From NCBI GenBank assembly GCA_003135055.1, contig PLDF01000222.1, positions 26,989 through 90,988 of the forward strand: a DNA stretch of 64,000 bases, given 5' to 3'. The notes below the pieces were generated by a model. That model saw nothing but the letters and a program-made list of their open reading frames with translations. It searched no databases and had not been told where the DNA came from. Positions 13,086 to 21,359 of this stretch are shown one piece after another; within the stretch, counting starts at the first letter, position 1; each line of letters begins with the position of its first letter. A program made the position numbers and the translations under genes. The stretch is from Bryobacterales bacterium. Lineage in GTDB: Bacteria; Acidobacteriota; Terriglobia; Bryobacterales; Bryobacteraceae.

Positions 13086-15233
13086 CTACAGTCCGAACTC
13101 GAACAGTGCCTTACCCGCCGCCACCAAGATTACCTGGCGCCCGTCCACGGTGAATGAGATCGGCGGCGCATAGGTGTCTCCTCCCAGGTAAACGCGCCAC
13201 AATTCGCATCCGTTCGCCGAATCTATGGCAAAAACGAACCCTCTCGATGCCCCGAATACAAGACCCCCGCCTGTCGCCAAGAGCCCACTATAACCACCAG
13301 CGAAGGCCCCACCTGCAATTGGCGAGGAACGCTGCCATTTTTCCTTGCCGGTCGCAACATCTAACGCCTTGACGACCGTGGCGCCCCCTGAGGCATCGAG
13401 GCCGGCGCTGCCGGGGTAGAATCCAAAATCCCCGCGCTGAGGGTTCGCAGCCTTTGTGAATACAGAAGCCTCTTCGGCGGCAGGGACGAAGAACAATCCG
13501 CGCTTGGGGTCAAACGCCTCATTTTGCCAGTTAGTGCCGCCCCCGAGGCCGGGCTTCGTCAGTCGGCCCGCGAGTGAAACTCCGCCGCCCGTAAAGAGGA
13601 TCGGGCGCCCCGCCGAATCGAGACCTTTCGCCCAGTTCTGTTCGACGAAAGGCACACCCATGAGGAATTCGCCGGTTGCTCTGTCGAGTACATAGTAGAA
13701 CCCGTTTCTGTTTGAAGTGCAGACCGCCCGGCGTAAGACGCCCTTGATTAGGATGTCCGCCAGGATAGGAGTCTGGGTTGCATCCCAGTCGTGTTCATCG
13801 TGGGGAGTGAATTGGAAATACCATGCCAGTTTTCCTGTGCCTGCATGCAAGGCGATCAGGCTGTCGGTGAACAGGTTGTCGCCTGGACGGACATCTCCCT
13901 GAAGACCCGGGGCCGGGTTGCCTACGCCCCAATAAATAAGGTCCAGCGCCGGGTCGTAACTCCCCGTGATCCAGGTTGCGCCGCCACCGGTTTGCCACGC
14001 ATTGTTCTTCCAAGTGTCGTGTCCGAATTCGCCCGGACCGGGGATCGTGTCGAACCTCCATTGCTGCTTACCGGTTTGCGCATCGTAGGACGCCAGGAAA
14101 CCGCGAACCCCGAACTCGCCGCCGGCGACGCCAATGACGACCGATCCGTTTACGATGAGCGGCGCTCCGGTCAGCGTGAAACCGTCGGACGGTTTGACCA
14201 CCTCGGTTTGCCAGATCACACTCCCATTGGTTGCATTAATGGCGACCAGAAAGCCCTCGAAACTACCCAAGAACAACACGTTCCCCAGAACCGCGAGACC
14301 CCTGTTCGTCGGCATGATGCTCTCGACCGGCAGCCTATCGGGCAGACTCCGGGTGTACCGCCATCTTAACTCCCCGGACTTAGCATCCAAGGCAACCACA
14401 TCGGAAGGCGGTTCCGACCTGAAAATGATCCCGTTAACGACGATCGGCGTCGATTCGGTCCTTGACACGGATGTGCCGAATTGGCGAATCCATCGAACTT
14501 GAAGTCGCGAAACATTCTCGGGGGTCATCTCGGTCAACGGCGTGTAATGGTGTCCATCGAGAGAGCCTGAGTACGTCAGCCACTGATCCGGCTTGGTTCC
14601 GGCAGTGCGAATCTGTTCATTACTCACTTTGACGTCTATGGGGGGCAATCGATCCACGGACTGGCTGGAAGTAGCAGCCTGCAGAGTCTGCAGATAGCCG
14701 ATGACCTGCCACCGTTGCTGGGGAGACATGGCGACGCCAGCCATGCCCGTTTTAGGAATACCGTCTCTCACAACTTTGTAGATAGCGAGCTCGCTATCGC
14801 CATGGCTGAATCCCGAACGATTCAGCGGCGGGGCATGCGCCCCCTTTCCCTCTTCACCATGGCAAACCGCGCAGCGTTCGCGGAAGATCCCCGCGCCGCT
14901 TTGATGATCCGCATTTGTCGTGAAGGGATTCACGACCATGCCATCCAAGCTAATCCCCGTATTAACAAAGGCTTCCAGGCCGAAACCACCGCGAGCGTGG
15001 GTCATGAACCAAAGCTCGCGCCATGACAGGTCGGGGATGGCGCCTTCCGCTTTGCGCGCAAACAGCTGCGCGCGCCATGAAATCCTCTCCCACGTCCATC
15101 CATCCGGGGTGGAACGCAGCGACTTGAGTGTGAAGGCTGCCCATACCGCGATGCCAATTACAACAACGGCTGCAACAGCCGCCAGGCGCTTGCGCCGCTG
15201 TCTCGCTTTCGATGGATAATCGGTCACGATCAT
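13086..15233 (-). CDS. Membrane-anchored cytochrome c / PQQ-dependent dehydrogenase, copy 1
   Basis: A 715-residue protein. One N-terminal helix (RLAAVAAVVVIGIAVWAAF, about residues 17-35) anchors it in the membrane. A class I cytochrome c domain has CAVCH at 121-125 and a distal Met candidate near GIPKTGMAGVAM. The rest is an eight-bladed quinoprotein propeller (about 210-715) with tryptophan-docking repeats (TGKQQWRF, SGELRWRY, TGKEKWQR) and GNPAPGLQGDVRPGDNLFTDS, the metal/PQQ region of alcohol dehydrogenases. It should oxidise an alcohol or sugar in the periplasm and pass electrons through its own haem. The ATG at 15233 overlaps the stop of the HNH-like ORF (ATGA), which supplies the coupling that a weak ribosome site lacks. 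Confidence 0.9.
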   Translation of the reverse strand: MIVTDYPSKARQRRKRLAAVAAVVVIGIAVWAAFTLKSLRSTPDGWTWERISWRAQLFARKAEGAIPDLSWRELWFMTHARGGFGLEAFVNTGISLDGMVVNPFTTNADHQSGAGIFRERCAVCHGEEGKGAHAPPLNRSGFSHGDSELAIYKVVRDGIPKTGMAGVAMSPQQRWQVIGYLQTLQAATSSQSVDRLPPIDVKVSNEQIRTAGTKPDQWLTYSGSLDGHHYTPLTEMTPENVSRLQVRWIRQFGTSVSRTESTPIVVNGIIFRSEPPSDVVALDAKSGELRWRYTRSLPDRLPVESIMPTNRGLAVLGNVLFLGSFEGFLVAINATNGSVIWQTEVVKPSDGFTLTGAPLIVNGSVVIGVAGGEFGVRGFLASYDAQTGKQQWRFDTIPGPGEFGHDTWKNNAWQTGGGATWITGSYDPALDLIYWGVGNPAPGLQGDVRPGDNLFTDSLIALHAGTGKLAWYFQFTPHDEHDWDATQTPILADILIKGVLRRAVCTSNRNGFYYVLDRATGEFLMGVPFVEQNWAKGLDSAGRPILFTGGGVSLAGRLTKPGLGGGTNWQNEAFDPKRGLFFVPAAEEASVFTKAANPQRGDFGFYPGSAGLDASGGATVVKALDVATGKEKWQRSSPIAGGAFAGGYSGLLATGGGLVFGASRGFVFAIDSANGCELWRVYLGGDTYAPPISFTVDGRQVILVAAGKALFEFGL

Positions 15234-15505
15234 GAGTAACAGCCCGCCGGTGAAGATACGCCGTAGCGGAACCCGAGCTGCCGCCAAAACTCTCCCGCAC
15301 AAAACGACCTATATGTGCCCCCAAAATAATAGCGATACGCAAGCGGGTGCGCCTTATGCGACTTGCTTTCCCTTCCAGCAGGCGTAGCCACCCCGGCAGT
15401 GGTCTTACCTCCGAGCCAAGGCCGATACGCCTGATACCCACTGGAACGATCTGCACGCCGCCAGAAACGATTATCGTTATCCTCTAGCACACCGCAATTA
15501 CCCAT
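15230..15505 (-). CDS. HNH-endonuclease-like N-terminal fragment ORF, copy 1
   Basis: A 91-residue ORF starting MGNCGVLEDNDNRFWRRAD. It resembles the first half of phage-type HNH endonucleases, whose pattern is RFWxxVDxSGG...CWxWxG...GYGxF...AHRxAYxxxxGxIP. Here RFWRRADRSSGYQAYRPWL and SHKAHPLAYRYYFGG are visible, but the Cys of CWxW is Tyr, the HR is HP, and the ORF ends before the C-terminal HNH metal ligands, so nuclease activity is unlikely. Its TGA overlaps the ATG of the quinoprotein. All three tandem copies keep the frame through indels of whole codons, which suggests it is translated, perhaps now a leader. Confidence 0.65.
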   Translation of the reverse strand: MGNCGVLEDNDNRFWRRADRSSGYQAYRPWLGGKTTAGVATPAGRESKSHKAHPLAYRYYFGGTYRSFCAGEFWRQLGFRYGVSSPAGCYS

Positions 15506-15510
15506 GACTA

Positions 15511-15534
15511 ATAGTACCATAACTTCAAAGTCAA
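15511..15534 (-). promoter_or_regulatory. Extended -10 promoter of unit 1
   Basis: On the minus strand, TGG-TACTAT (15519-15511) is an extended -10 element. The -10 box ends five bases before the ATG at 15505, so the transcript would be leaderless. TTGACT at 15534-15529 is conserved but too close (12 bases) for a standard -35 with that box; it would be 15 bases from an alternative TATTAG box. Confidence 0.5.
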
Positions 15535-15792
15535 GACATTCTCAGGCGTAAGAATTCAAAGACACGGAATCCTGAATTAGTTCACCGAGGCCGGGTATCG
15601 ATGAGTACGGTAATCGGGCGCGATCCAAAGCGCCGGGAATTCCAAGGTCGGCAGTCTTCTCATCACATTCGATGTCGCTTAAAGCTTAAAATAAGGCTTT
15701 GCGCAGGAATTCGAAAGCCTAGCCGAAATACGGTTTGCATAGACGCGGTATTCGTCGAGGTCCGTGACGGCGTGCACTGGACCCGAATCGGA

Positions 15793-17934
15793 CTACAGTC
15801 CGAACTCGAACAGCACCCGGCCTGCAGATACCAGGATTACCTGGCGCCCATCCAGGTTGAATGTGATCGGCGCTGCATAGGTGTCCCCTCCTAAGAAGAC
15901 ACGCCACTGCTCGAGTCCGGTCGCCGAATCTATCGCAAAGACGAACCCTCCCGATGCTCCGAAAACGAGGCCCCCGCCTGTTGCCAATAGCCCACTGCAC
16001 TCAAAACTGGGTAATGGCGTATCCCATCGCTCCCATTTTTTCGCGCCGGTTGCGGCATCTAACGCTCGCACGACCGGAGTTGACGGCTCATTGGCGCCGG
16101 CGCTGCCCTCGAATAACCCATGGTCCCCGTGCCTGGGATGCGGGGACTTCGTGAATATGCCAGCCCCTTCAGTGGCCGGGATGAAGATCAATCCGCCTTT
16201 GGGGTCGAACGCCGCATTCTGCCAGTTGGTTCCACCCACGGCTCCAGGTCTCGTCAATCGGCCCGAGGATGAAAATCCGGCGCTCGCGGAGAGGACCGGA
16301 CGCCCCGCCGAATCGAGACCGTTCGCCCAGTTCTGTTCGACGAACGGCACGCCCACGAGAAATTCACCGGTTGCTCTGTCGAGCACATAGTAGAACCCAT
16401 TCCTGTTTGCAATGCAGACCACTCGACGTACGACGCCTTTAATCGAAATGTCCGCCAGGATAGGAGTCTCGGTTGCATCCCAGTCATGGATATCGTGAGG
16501 AGTGAATTGGAAATACCATGCCAGCTTCCCCGAGCTGGCATGCAAGGCCAGTATGCTGTCGGTGAACAGGTTGTCGCCTGGACGTACGTCTCCGTTATAA
16601 GGCGGGGACGGATTCCCTATGCCCCAATAAAGAAGGTCCAGCGATGGGTCGTAACTCCCCGTGACCCAGGTTGCGCCGCCACCGGTTCGCCACGCATCGT
16701 TCTTCCACGTGTCGTGTCCGAATTCGCCCGGACCGGGGACCGTGTTGAACCTCCATTGTTGCCGGCCGGTTTGCGCGTCATAGGCCGCGAGGAAGCCATT
16801 AATCCCGTATTCGCCACCGGCGACGCCAACGACAACCGACCCATTTACGATGAGCGGCGCTCCCGACATCGAATAATTGTCGGACGATTTGGCCACGGTG
16901 GTTTGCCAAATCACGCTCCCATTGTTTGCGTCGATGGCGACCAGGACGCCATCCAGACCGCCCAAGAACAATAGTTTCCCCAGAACGGCTAGACCTCTGG
17001 TGCCCCCATGAACGCTTTCCGTCGGTAATTTATCGGGCAGATTTCGCCTGTACCGCCATCTTACCTTCCCGGACTTGGCATCTAAGGCAACGACATCGTT
17101 AGGCGGCTCCGTCGTGAACAGGACTCCGTCAACGACGATCGGCGTCGATTCGCTGCCATATGACTCGGGTGCGTCGAATTGGTGGACCCATCGAACTCGA
17201 AGTCGCGCAACATTCTCGGGGGTGATCTCGGTCAACGGCGCGAAGCGCCGTCCATCGAGAGAGCCTGAGTAGGTCAGCCACTGATCCGGCCTGCTTCCAG
17301 CAGTGCGAATCTGTTCACTGCTCACTTGGATGTCTACGGAGGGCAATTGTTCCGTGTTCTTGATGGAAGCGGCAAGCTGCAGAGTTCTCACATAGCCGAC
17401 GACCTGCCACCTTTCCTTGGGTGACATGGCGACAGCGGCCATGCCCGTCCGGGGAATGCCGTCTCTCACTGTTTTGTAGATAGCGAAGTCACTCTCGCCA
17501 TGGCTGTATCCCGAACGATTCAGCCGCGGAGCATGCCCTCCCGTTCCCTCTTTACCATGGCAGACCATGCAGCGTTCGCGGAAGATCCCCGCACCGCGCT
17601 GAAGATCGTCGTCTGTGGCGTATGGGTTCAGGAGCGTGCCATCCAAGCTAACTCCCTGGTTAACGACTCCTTCCAGGCCGAAACCGCCGCGAGAGTGCAT
17701 CATGAACCAAAGCTCACGCCATGAGAATTCGGGGATGGCGCCTTCCGCTTTGCGCGCAAACAGCTGCGCGCGCCATGAAATTCTCGCCCACGTCCATCCA
17801 TCCGGGGTGGAATGCTGTGACTTGAGCGTGAAGGTTGCCCATACCCCGATGCCAACTACAACAACGGCGGCAACAATAGCAGCCAGGCGCTTGCGCCGCG
17901 GTCTCGCTTTCGATGGATAATCGGCCGCGATCAT
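15793..17934 (-). CDS. Membrane-anchored cytochrome c / PQQ-dependent dehydrogenase, copy 2
   Basis: A 713-residue paralogue with the same order: anchor helix, cytochrome c domain (CMVCHGKEGTGGHAP), quinoprotein propeller with GNPSPPYNGDVRPGDNLFTDS. It differs from copies 1 and 3 throughout, for example VPGPGEFGHDTWKNDAW against IPGPGEFGHDTWKNNAW and a divergent last blade (TPLPSFECSGLL). Different substrate preference is possible. The start at 17934 (MIAADYPSK) overlaps the upstream HNH-like ORF by ATGA; an in-frame start 20 codons earlier would lie inside that ORF. It is the middle gene of the triplication. Confidence 0.9.
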   Translation of the reverse strand: MIAADYPSKARPRRKRLAAIVAAVVVVGIGVWATFTLKSQHSTPDGWTWARISWRAQLFARKAEGAIPEFSWRELWFMMHSRGGFGLEGVVNQGVSLDGTLLNPYATDDDLQRGAGIFRERCMVCHGKEGTGGHAPRLNRSGYSHGESDFAIYKTVRDGIPRTGMAAVAMSPKERWQVVGYVRTLQLAASIKNTEQLPSVDIQVSSEQIRTAGSRPDQWLTYSGSLDGRRFAPLTEITPENVARLRVRWVHQFDAPESYGSESTPIVVDGVLFTTEPPNDVVALDAKSGKVRWRYRRNLPDKLPTESVHGGTRGLAVLGKLLFLGGLDGVLVAIDANNGSVIWQTTVAKSSDNYSMSGAPLIVNGSVVVGVAGGEYGINGFLAAYDAQTGRQQWRFNTVPGPGEFGHDTWKNDAWRTGGGATWVTGSYDPSLDLLYWGIGNPSPPYNGDVRPGDNLFTDSILALHASSGKLAWYFQFTPHDIHDWDATETPILADISIKGVVRRVVCIANRNGFYYVLDRATGEFLVGVPFVEQNWANGLDSAGRPVLSASAGFSSSGRLTRPGAVGGTNWQNAAFDPKGGLIFIPATEGAGIFTKSPHPRHGDHGLFEGSAGANEPSTPVVRALDAATGAKKWERWDTPLPSFECSGLLATGGGLVFGASGGFVFAIDSATGLEQWRVFLGGDTYAAPITFNLDGRQVILVSAGRVLFEFGL

Positions 17935-18218
17935 GAGTAGCATCCCGCTGGTGAAGGTATAGGGTAGCGGAACCCGGCGAACTGCCGCTGCCAAAATTCT
18001 CCCGCACGAGACGACCTATGTATGCCCCCAAAATAATAGCGATACGCATTCCGGTGCGCCTCATGCGGCTTGCCTTCCTGGCCAGCAGGCGTAAGCACTC
18101 CATAACCGCCAGTTGTCTTACCTCCGCGCCAAGGCCAATACGCCCGATACCCGCCGGAACCATCTAAACGCCGCCAGAAACGATTATCGCTACCCTCAGG
18201 CACACCACAAATACCCAT
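17931..18218 (-). CDS. HNH-endonuclease-like N-terminal fragment ORF, copy 2
   Basis: A 95-residue ORF (MGICGVPEGSDNRFWRRLD) with the best match of the three to the HNH pattern: GGYRAYWPWRGGKTTGGYG, then EAHRNAYRYYFGGI. It keeps the AHR that copies 1 and 3 have lost. The C-terminal half of the domain is missing and replaced by an unrelated tail (AGEFWQRQ...SPAGCYS) shared by all copies. Two extra codons relative to copy 3 lie in the middle loop without a frame change. The stop overlaps the quinoprotein start (ATGA). Confidence 0.65.
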   Translation of the reverse strand: MGICGVPEGSDNRFWRRLDGSGGYRAYWPWRGGKTTGGYGVLTPAGQEGKPHEAHRNAYRYYFGGIHRSSRAGEFWQRQFAGFRYPIPSPAGCYS

Positions 18219-18224
18219 AGGCTA

Positions 18225-18248
18225 ATAGTGCCATAACTTCCAGGTCAA
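18225..18248 (-). promoter_or_regulatory. Extended -10 promoter of unit 2
   Basis: TGG-CACTAT (18233-18225 on the minus strand) corresponds to the TGG-TACTAT of units 1 and 3 with one weaker base. The ATG follows six bases after the box. TTGACC is at 18248-18243. The same leaderless geometry is predicted; a weaker promoter than in units 1 and 3 is likely. Confidence 0.4.
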
Positions 18249-18635
18249 GACATTGGAATCCCGATTGGTTCACCGAGGCCGGGTATGGATGAGTACGCCG
18301 ATCGGCGCGCGATCCGAAGCGCCGGGAATCCAAGGTCCCCAGTTTTTCATCACGCTCGATGTCGCCGATAAAGCTTAAATACGGCTCTGCGCAGGAATTC
18401 GACGGCCTGGCTTTGCTAGTCGCGGTATTCGTCGTGGTCCGTGACGCGGTGCATATTCGCAACCGGGCGAACAAATTGGCTTGGTTTCCTATACACGGCC
18501 GCGATCGGCCCGGGGCCAGGTTCCTCTTGCGGATGGATGCGCGACCATCTCCGCATCGGGTTCGATCCGGCGTCCGGCGAGAGTGTCCCGCTCCGGTATT
18601 ACTCTACGGCGTGTTTCCCGGACTCGAATCGGTTA

Positions 18636-20783
18636 CTACAGTCCGAACTCGAACAGTGCCCGGCCCGCCGCAACCAAGATGACCTGGCGCCCGTCCACGG
18701 TGAATGAGATCGGCGGCGCATAGGTGTCTCCACCCAGGTAAACCCGCCACAATTCGCATCCGTTCGCCGAATCTATGGCAAAAACGAACCCTCTCGCTGC
18801 CCCGAAGACGAGACCGCCGCCTGTCGCCAAGAGCCCACTATAACCACCAGCGAAGGCCCCACCCGCAATTGGCGAGGAACGCTGCCATTTTTCCTTGCCG
18901 GTCGCAACATCTAACGCCTTGACGACCGTGGCGCCCCCGGAGGCATCGAGGCCGGCGCTGCCGGGGTAGAATCCAAAATCCCCGCGCTGAGGGTTCGCAG
19001 CCTTTGTGAATACAGAAGCCTCTTCAGCGGCAGGGACGAAGAACAATCCGCGCTTGGGGTCAAACGCCTCATTTTGCCAGTTAGTGCCACCTCCGAGGCC
19101 GGGCTTCGTCAGTCGGCCCGCGAGTGAAACTCCGCCGCCCGTGGAGAGGATCGGGCGCCCTGCCGAATCGAGACCTTTCGCCCAATTCTGTTCGACGAAA
19201 GGCACACCCACGAGGAATTCGCCGGTCGTTCGATCGAGTACATAGTAGAACCCGTTTCTGTTTGAAGTGCAGATCACCCGGCGTAAGACGCCATTAATCG
19301 GGATGTCCGCCAGGATAGGAGTCTGGGTTGCATCCCAGTCGTGTTCATCGTGAGGAGTGAATTGGAAATACCATGCCAGCTTTCCCGTGCCGGCATGCAA
19401 GGCGATCAGGCTGTCGGTGAACAGGTTGTCGCCTGGACGGACATCTCCCTGAAGACCCGGGGCCGGGTTGCCTACGCCCCAATAAATAAGGTCCAGCGCC
19501 GGGTCGTAACTCCCCGTGATCCAGGTTGCGCCGCCACCGGTTTTCCACGCATTGTTCTTCCACGTGTCGTGTCCGAATTCGCCCGGACCGGGGATCGTGT
19601 CGAACCTCCATTGTTGCTTGCCGGTTTGCGCATCGTAGGACGCCAGGAAACCGCGAACCCCAAACTCGCCGCCGGCGACGCCAATGACGACCGATCCGTT
19701 TACGATGAGCGGCGCTCCGGTCAGCGTGAAACCGTCGGACGGTTTGACCACCTCGGTTTGCCAGATCACACTCCCATTGGTTGCATTAAGGGCGACCAGA
19801 AAGCCCTCGAAACTACCCAAGAACAACACGTTCCCCAGAACGGCGAGACCTCTGTTCGTCGGCATGATGCTCTCGACCGGCAGCCTATCGGGCAGACTTC
19901 GGGTATACCGCCATCTTAACTCTCCGGACTTAGCATCCAAGGCAACCACATCGGAAGGCGGCTCCGACCTGAAAATGATTCCGTTAACGACGAGCGGCGT
20001 CGATTCGGTCCTTGAAACGGATATGCCGAATTGGCGAATCCATCGAACTTGAAGTCGCGAAACATTCTCGGGGGTCATCTCGGTCAATGGCGTGTAATGG
20101 TGTCCATCGAGAGACCCTGAGTACGTCAACCACCGATCCGGCTTGGTTCCGGCAGTGCGAATCTGTTCATTACTCACTTTGACGTCTATGGGGGGCAAGC
20201 GGTCCACGTACTGGGTGGAAGTAGCAGCCTGCAGAGTCTGCAGATAGCCGATGACCTGCCACCGTTGCAGGGGGGACATGGCGACGGCAGCCATGCCTGT
20301 TTTAGGAATACCATCTCTCACAACTTTGTAGATAGCTAGCTCACTATCGCCATGGCTGAATCCCGAACGATTCAGCGGCGGGGCATGCGCCCCCTTTCCC
20401 TCGTCACCATGGCAAGGCGCGCAGCGTTCGCGGAAGATCCCTGCGCCGCTTTGATAATCCGCATTTGTCGTGAACGGATTCACGACCATGCCATCCAAGC
20501 TAATTCCCGTATTAACAAAGGCTTCCAGGCCGAAACCACCGCGAGCGTGCGTCATGAACCAAAGCTCACGCCATGACAGGTCGGGGATGGCGCCTTCCGC
20601 TTTGCGCGCAAACAGCTGCGCACGCCATGAAATCCTCTCCCACGTCCATCCATCCGGGGTGGAATGCAGTGACTTGAGTGCGAAAGTTGCCCATACCGCG
20701 ACGCCAATTACAACAACGGCAGCAATAGCCGCCAGGCGCTTGCGCCACTGTCTCGCTTTCGGTCGATCGTCGGTCACGATCAT
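18636..20783 (-). CDS. Membrane-anchored cytochrome c / PQQ-dependent dehydrogenase, copy 3
   Basis: A 715-residue protein nearly identical to copy 1; scattered differences include CAPCHGDEGKGAH instead of CAVCHGEEGKGAH in the haem motif and changes in the first 15 residues (MIVTDDRPKARQWRKRL). All family features are kept: N-terminal anchor, CxxCH haem site, propeller with GNPAPGLQGDVRPGDNLFT. High identity to copy 1 despite copy 2 lying between them suggests recent duplication or gene conversion. The start at 20783 overlaps the HNH-like ORF by ATGA. Confidence 0.9.
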   Translation of the reverse strand: MIVTDDRPKARQWRKRLAAIAAVVVIGVAVWATFALKSLHSTPDGWTWERISWRAQLFARKAEGAIPDLSWRELWFMTHARGGFGLEAFVNTGISLDGMVVNPFTTNADYQSGAGIFRERCAPCHGDEGKGAHAPPLNRSGFSHGDSELAIYKVVRDGIPKTGMAAVAMSPLQRWQVIGYLQTLQAATSTQYVDRLPPIDVKVSNEQIRTAGTKPDRWLTYSGSLDGHHYTPLTEMTPENVSRLQVRWIRQFGISVSRTESTPLVVNGIIFRSEPPSDVVALDAKSGELRWRYTRSLPDRLPVESIMPTNRGLAVLGNVLFLGSFEGFLVALNATNGSVIWQTEVVKPSDGFTLTGAPLIVNGSVVIGVAGGEFGVRGFLASYDAQTGKQQWRFDTIPGPGEFGHDTWKNNAWKTGGGATWITGSYDPALDLIYWGVGNPAPGLQGDVRPGDNLFTDSLIALHAGTGKLAWYFQFTPHDEHDWDATQTPILADIPINGVLRRVICTSNRNGFYYVLDRTTGEFLVGVPFVEQNWAKGLDSAGRPILSTGGGVSLAGRLTKPGLGGGTNWQNEAFDPKRGLFFVPAAEEASVFTKAANPQRGDFGFYPGSAGLDASGGATVVKALDVATGKEKWQRSSPIAGGAFAGGYSGLLATGGGLVFGAARGFVFAIDSANGCELWRVYLGGDTYAPPISFTVDGRQVILVAAGRALFEFGL

Positions 20784-21061
20784 GAGTAACAGCCCACCGG
20801 TGAAGATACACTGTAGTGGATCCCAAACTGTCGCTGCAAAAATTCTCCCGCACGGAACAACTTATCTATGCCCCCAAAAAAATAGCGATACGCAAACGGG
20901 TGCGCCTTATGCGACTTGCCTTCCCTTCCAGTACGAGCAAACACCACATAACCGACAGTCGTACCTTCGAGCCACGGCCAATACGCCCGATACCCACCGG
21001 AACGATCTACACGCCGCCAGAAACGATTATCGTTACCCTCAAGCACACCGCAAATACCCAT
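20780..21061 (-). CDS. HNH-endonuclease-like N-terminal fragment ORF, copy 3
   Basis: A 93-residue ORF (MGICGVLEGNDNRFWRRVD) with SGGYRAYWPWLEGTTVGY, then KSHKAHPFAYRYFFGGI, the same truncated HNH-like pattern. The tail ends SVSSPVGCYS, matching the other copies. Its stop codon overlaps the start of quinoprotein copy 3. Conservation of W, F and Y positions among copies while loops vary is what selection on a peptide would leave, although recent duplication alone could explain part of it. Confidence 0.6.
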   Translation of the reverse strand: MGICGVLEGNDNRFWRRVDRSGGYRAYWPWLEGTTVGYVVFARTGREGKSHKAHPFAYRYFFGGIDKLFRAGEFLQRQFGIHYSVSSPVGCYS

Positions 21062-21066
21062 AACTA

Positions 21067-21090
21067 ATAGTACCATAACTTCCAAGTCAA
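21067..21090 (-). promoter_or_regulatory. Extended -10 promoter of unit 3
   Basis: TGG-TACTAT (21075-21067 on the minus strand) is identical to unit 1, with the ATG at 21061 five bases further on. TTGACT lies at 21090-21085. Same predicted leaderless start. Confidence 0.5.
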
Positions 21091-21359
21091 GACATTCTCA
21101 GGCATATACTTCTTAAAGACATGGAATCCTGAATTAGTTCACCGGCGCCGGGTATGAACGAGTACGGTAATCGGGAGCGATCCAAAGCGCCGGGAACCAA
21201 GGTCCTCAGTTTTTTCATCGCATTCGACGCCGCTTAAATCTTAATTAGGGCTCCGCGCAGGAATTCGACGGGCCTAGCCGAAATACGGTTTGCTAAACGC
21301 GGTATTCCTCGACTGTCCGTGACGCGCTGCACAGTCGCAACCGGGCGATCAAGCGCCGA

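Follow-up and report, generated by a model that had tools for sequence, protein, structure and literature searches.

A possible HNH endonuclease-derived translated leader in front of three tandem quinoprotein genes in a Bryobacterales bacterium

Organization of the quinoprotein locus

In a contig of a Bryobacterales bacterium, three tandem quinoprotein genes on the minus strand are each preceded by a short open reading frame (ORF) that resembles a part of a phage nuclease. This raises the question of where these ORFs came from and whether they have a role in front of the quinoprotein genes. The analyzed window, i.e., the whole stretch of DNA, comprises 64,000 nucleotides and belongs to an assembly of 10.7 Mb in 515 contigs (99.9% complete, 9.3% contamination estimate).

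The three quinoproteins consist of an N-terminal cytochrome c and a PQQ propeller, and both domains exceeded the Pfam cut-offs. Their nearest relatives are acidobacterial. The ORFs in front of them were found to be 91, 95 and 93 codons in length, in line with the range of 91 to 95 codons given in an earlier note on this DNA. At all three junctions, the TGA stop of the ORF overlaps the ATG of the quinoprotein gene on the same strand as ATGA, so that the overlap described there was confirmed. The ORFs measure 276 nt (A), 288 nt (B) and 282 nt (C) and thus differ by whole codons, as had also been claimed. The features of the locus are listed in Table 1.

Table 1. Positions of the features of the three repeat units in the window.
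Feature	Position	Strand	Evidence or remark
Quinoprotein A	13086..15233	-	TM anchor, cytochrome c, PQQ beta-propeller; Pfam PF13442, PF01011; TM anchor by reading
ATGA, stop of ORF A and start of quinoprotein A	15230..15233	-
ORF A, HNH-derived leader candidate	15230..15505	-	91 aa; phrog_826 E 0.098; tblastn with HNH proteins E 0.004-0.16
HNH-like segment, ORF A residues 12-62	15320..15472	-	more decayed
Conserved 5′ non-coding block, copy A	15506..15767	-	frequent single-base indels
Quinoprotein B	15793..17934	-	Pfam PF13442, PF01011
ATGA, stop of ORF B and start of quinoprotein B	17931..17934	-
ORF B, HNH-derived leader candidate	17931..18218	-	95 aa; phrog_826 E 7.2e-7; Skermanella HNH 44% over 52 aa
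HNH-like segment, ORF B residues 11-66	18021..18188	-	similarity stops before catalytic motif
Conserved 5′ non-coding block, copy B	18219..18444	-
Quinoprotein C	18636..20783	-	Pfam PF13442, PF01011
ATGA, stop of ORF C and start of quinoprotein C	20780..20783	-
ORF C, HNH-derived leader candidate	20780..21061	-	93 aa; phrog_826 E 2.1e-6
HNH-like segment, ORF C residues 12-66	20864..21028	-
Conserved 5′ non-coding block, copy C	21062..21322	-	repeat unit starts here

The three copies, which have a 5′ block in common, are the result of one tandem triplication and not of three captures. Therefore, they count as one acquisition instead of three independent events. Identity between quinoproteins A and C amounts to 96% (dS about 0.11), but to 85% between their leader ORFs. 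Quinoprotein B is close to A (92%) near the 5′ end only and about 75-85% identical beyond. This suggests gene conversion or recombination limited to parts of the repeat units, and gene conversion is plausible because of these differences.

A large exopolysaccharide cluster (positions 2217-63311, judged by reading translations) encloses the quinoprotein triplet. It contains genes for an exosortase, a Wzz-like chain-length protein and a polysaccharide deacetylase as well as nucleotide-sugar and glycosyltransferase genes. An antisense frame of 197 codons (20470-21063, plus strand) spans ORF C. It is interrupted by stops in copies A and B and is therefore probably due to chance.

Similarity of the ORFs to HNH endonucleases

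The profile search against PHROGs matched the ORFs to phrog_826 (HNH endonuclease) across residues 11-66, with the E-values given in Table 1. Using copy B as tblastn query, 36 phage records were found, and nearly all of those listed are annotated as HNH endonuclease. Among those listed, the matches end by residue 67. Copy B also shares 44% identity, over 52 residues, with an HNH protein encoded on a plasmid of Skermanella rosea. The multiple alignment with HNH enzymes yielded the common motif RFW.+VD.SGG...WPW...GYG...AHR.AY...G, and the HNH-like core motif is common to all three copies. The pattern RFWRR.D.S.GY.AY.PW ... AH..AYRY.FGG, which had been assigned to HNH endonucleases from the letters alone, is borne out by phrog_826 and by the phage tblastn matches.

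Compared to the phrog_826 enzymes (e.g., Mycobacterium phage Minerva gp137 and the Skermanella rosea plasmid homolog), residues 11-66 of copy B align with 38-44% identity. The motif shared with this family is RFW.+VD.SGG..CWPW..GYG...AHR.AY..G, whereas the cysteine of CWPW is a Y in the ORFs. The ORFs differ further in that the catalytic half (H.C.NP.C.NP.HL) is missing and the last ~30 codons are unrelated to HNH endonucleases. The aligned part stops at residue ~66, just short of the catalytic HNH motif, and the metal-binding His/Asn and the zinc-binding Cys are absent from the ORFs. The earlier statement that the metal-binding C-terminal half is lacking was thus correct. A search with full-length HNH proteins did not find the C-terminal half elsewhere in the window. 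The DNA upstream of the orthologous quinoproteins, searched for the junction, showed no similarity to the ORF tail.

Neither Pfam nor NCBIfam returned an HNH match for any copy, and Pfam returned none for the consensus of the three copies. Hence, the specific name HNH_3 proposed earlier is unsupported. The consensus reached 37.5 bits with phrog_826, compared to 30.0, 28.5 and 13.2 bits for the individual copies. This is compatible with decay since the triplication, although higher scores are common for consensus sequences in any case. Considering the PHROGs and tblastn matches over residues 11-66, the shared motif and the missing catalytic half, the ORF is likely to stem from the first half of an HNH endonuclease gene.

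Distribution of the ORF

Beyond the three copies, the ORF was found in the same genome neither by protein nor by DNA search. It was found in none of the 150 relatives searched, and no match was obtained in the viral contigs searched. Two weak matches among the relatives were rejected as chance after reading the frames: one lies inside a TerC-like membrane protein (L007), the other in a long frame without HNH features (L006).

The quinoproteins resemble acidobacterial PQQ-dependent dehydrogenases with cytochrome c, which carry Pfam PQQ and cytochrome CBB3/c domains. Full-length orthologs with 57-70% identity were found in L038-L043 (L009 is apparently the same contig as L039). In contrast to the locus described here, these orthologs have no such ORF upstream, with only 160 nt of upstream sequence in L038. 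Since the closest orthologous quinoproteins lack it, the leader is dispensable in general. One full-length homolog, from Mesorhizobium caraganae LMG 24397 (L043), is 57% identical to quinoprotein C. Most acidobacterial paralogs are more distant from quinoprotein C than this homolog, which may point to horizontal transfer. The arrangement was not found described in a literature search.

Substitutions and reading frame

Relative to their consensus, the three copies carry 19 synonymous and 47 non-synonymous changes, corresponding to an omega of 0.94 (95% CI 0.54-1.70). The changes are distributed over the codon positions as 23/25/18, i.e., an excess at the third position is absent. Pairwise dN/dS between the ORF copies ranged from 0.7 to 1.0, and omega of the HNH-like part was 0.9-1.2. 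The third-position GC content of the ORFs is 0.50-0.54 and not above that of the other positions, compared to 0.65-0.80 for the quinoproteins and neighbouring genes. The divergence between copies amounts to 0.15-0.17 for the ORF and 0.12-0.17 for the 5′ block. Purifying selection on the amino-acid sequence of the ORF was not detected by omega or codon positions in these three copies, and this sequence looks unconstrained among the copies.

The reading frame presents a different pattern. No stop was found in the three ORF copies, where 2.8 in total were expected from neutral simulation; with P about 0.055, this absence is borderline. In a nucleotide-only alignment, the gap events of the ORF were 3, 6, 3 and 3 nt in length, i.e., four of four are multiples of three. 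The corresponding events in the 5′ block were 1, 1, 10, 1, 1, 2, 1, 1, 2, 1, 27, 1 and 1 nt, with one of 13 being a multiple of three. This difference is significant (Fisher P=0.002) and was unchanged under three alignment settings. However, the test rests on four indels, some of which lie in short repeats favouring 3-nt slippage, and the copies may have kept their frame passively, through gene conversion among them. The evidence covers one genome and three copies of one triplication.

The main rival to a coupled leader is a dead or chance-open relic: a remnant of the HNH gene carried along with the triplicated quinoprotein, open by chance and gene conversion and without a role. The neutral substitution pattern, a divergence in the range of the non-coding block next to the ORF, a codon-position GC content unlike that of the neighbouring genes and the absence from relatives and from the upstream regions of the orthologs all fit this explanation. 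It is at odds with the indels, which are all whole codons in the ORF while 12 of 13 are out of frame in the neighbouring block, with three copies free of stops and with an ATGA intact in all three of them. Altogether, we regard a dead remnant as doubtful, though with a sizeable probability.

The kept frame and the core motif common to all copies would also agree with a small functional protein, e.g., a partner or assembly factor of the quinoprotein that evolves fast or diversifies between copies, and the confidence interval of omega extends down to 0.54. The estimate itself, the lack of a third-position excess and the values for the HNH-like part argue against such a protein. Half of a His-Me finger domain would be unlikely to fold alone, and a homolog of the whole ORF was found nowhere else in the searches made. 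The comparison of dN/dS between copies and the search for the ORF before homologous quinoproteins, both suggested in the earlier note, thus speak against a functional protein, which we consider improbable. They do not refute a sequence-indifferent leader, since frame breaks are absent as well.

Possible role as a translated leader

A translated leader that is indifferent to its sequence would account for both patterns. According to this proposal, a gene fragment for the N-terminal half of an HNH endonuclease, extended by about 30 codons, would have come to stand before a quinoprotein gene so that the reading frame ran through to the quinoprotein start codon, and the unit of 5′ block, ORF and quinoprotein gene would then have been tandemly triplicated. 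The peptide would be functionless and drift freely. Ribosomes translating the ORF would terminate at the ATGA and restart on the quinoprotein (termination-reinitiation). With ribosomes delivered via the ATGA, selection would act against frameshifts and stops in the ORF and not against amino-acid changes. A frame kept open up to the ATGA with indifferent amino acids is what termination-reinitiation predicts.

For a decayed HNH relic serving as such a leader coupled to the quinoprotein, we see even chances. The further reading, in which a phage-type HNH half was exapted from a selfish gene fragment to a pure translation signal for an adjacent respiratory enzyme gene, with the frame selected and the peptide irrelevant, is put forward tentatively, at somewhat below even chances. 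That the locus is transcribed, that the ORF is translated and coupled to the quinoprotein, and that this has any regulatory value is what we infer from the sequence, and the capture of a selfish gene and control of expression by the leader are likewise presumed. Of the earlier proposal of an HNH fragment used as translated leader, the derivation from the N-terminal part of an HNH protein is supported, and the leader role gains only indirect support from the frame, the ATGA and the initiation signals.

Coupling at ATGA is well known: of 14 cases of ATGA or TGATG pairs examined in E. coli and Haloferax, 13 showed strict coupling (Huber et al., 2019; PMC6728339). The ORFs share with these pairs the four-base overlap, the same direction and a first frame that is kept. 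Those pairs usually consist of two functional genes, whereas here the first frame is neutral as a protein and the coupling is predicted. A short upstream ORF is also found before iraD of E. coli, which is translated through it; coupling and control by CsrA were demonstrated experimentally (PMC5574718). In contrast to iraD, the upstream ORF described here is a nuclease fragment whose translation is predicted from the sequence. What is unusual is the HNH origin and the combination of a neutral protein with a kept frame.

If the leader reading is true, translational coupling of the ordinary kind has here drawn on an unusual source, and the locus shows how part of a mobile nuclease can join the signals by which a host gene is expressed while keeping no protein function. 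The signature of neutral codons and a protected frame could then be used to find other sequence-indifferent leader ORFs in genomes. Caution is advised against annotating such leader ORFs as HNH proteins.

The 5′ block and initiation signals

The ORFs are preceded by a 5′ block of 226-262 nt with 83-88% identity between the copies. The conserved promoter claimed earlier can be maintained with respect to this conservation only, as a sigma-70 promoter scan of the block recognised none. A structured 5′ untranslated RNA or a DNA regulatory element with an incidental open frame would explain why block and ORF are similarly conserved between copies, but no Rfam family matched and the indel patterns of block and ORF differ sharply, as expected of a reading frame, making this explanation very improbable.

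A clear Shine-Dalgarno sequence was not found before the ORF start, so the ORF may be leaderless or weakly initiated. Just before the ATG, a box of the TAnnnT type was identified as TACTAT (A, C) and CACTAT (B), which was considered as a candidate for a leaderless start. The quinoprotein start has a moderate Shine-Dalgarno sequence (-4.1 to -6.2 kcal/mol), and most of this region is predicted to be base-paired in each copy (unpaired probability 0.03-0.26). An ORF without Shine-Dalgarno sequence in front of a quinoprotein with a paired one is, as modelled, suggestive only as support for the translated leader.

Within the 5′ block, conservation is highest in the stretch AATGTCTTGAC.T.GAAGTTATGG.ACTATTAG, found at positions 21062-21110 and at the corresponding site upstream of ORFs A and B. 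It runs to the start codon of the ORF, and its spacing does not match the standard sigma-70 spacing.
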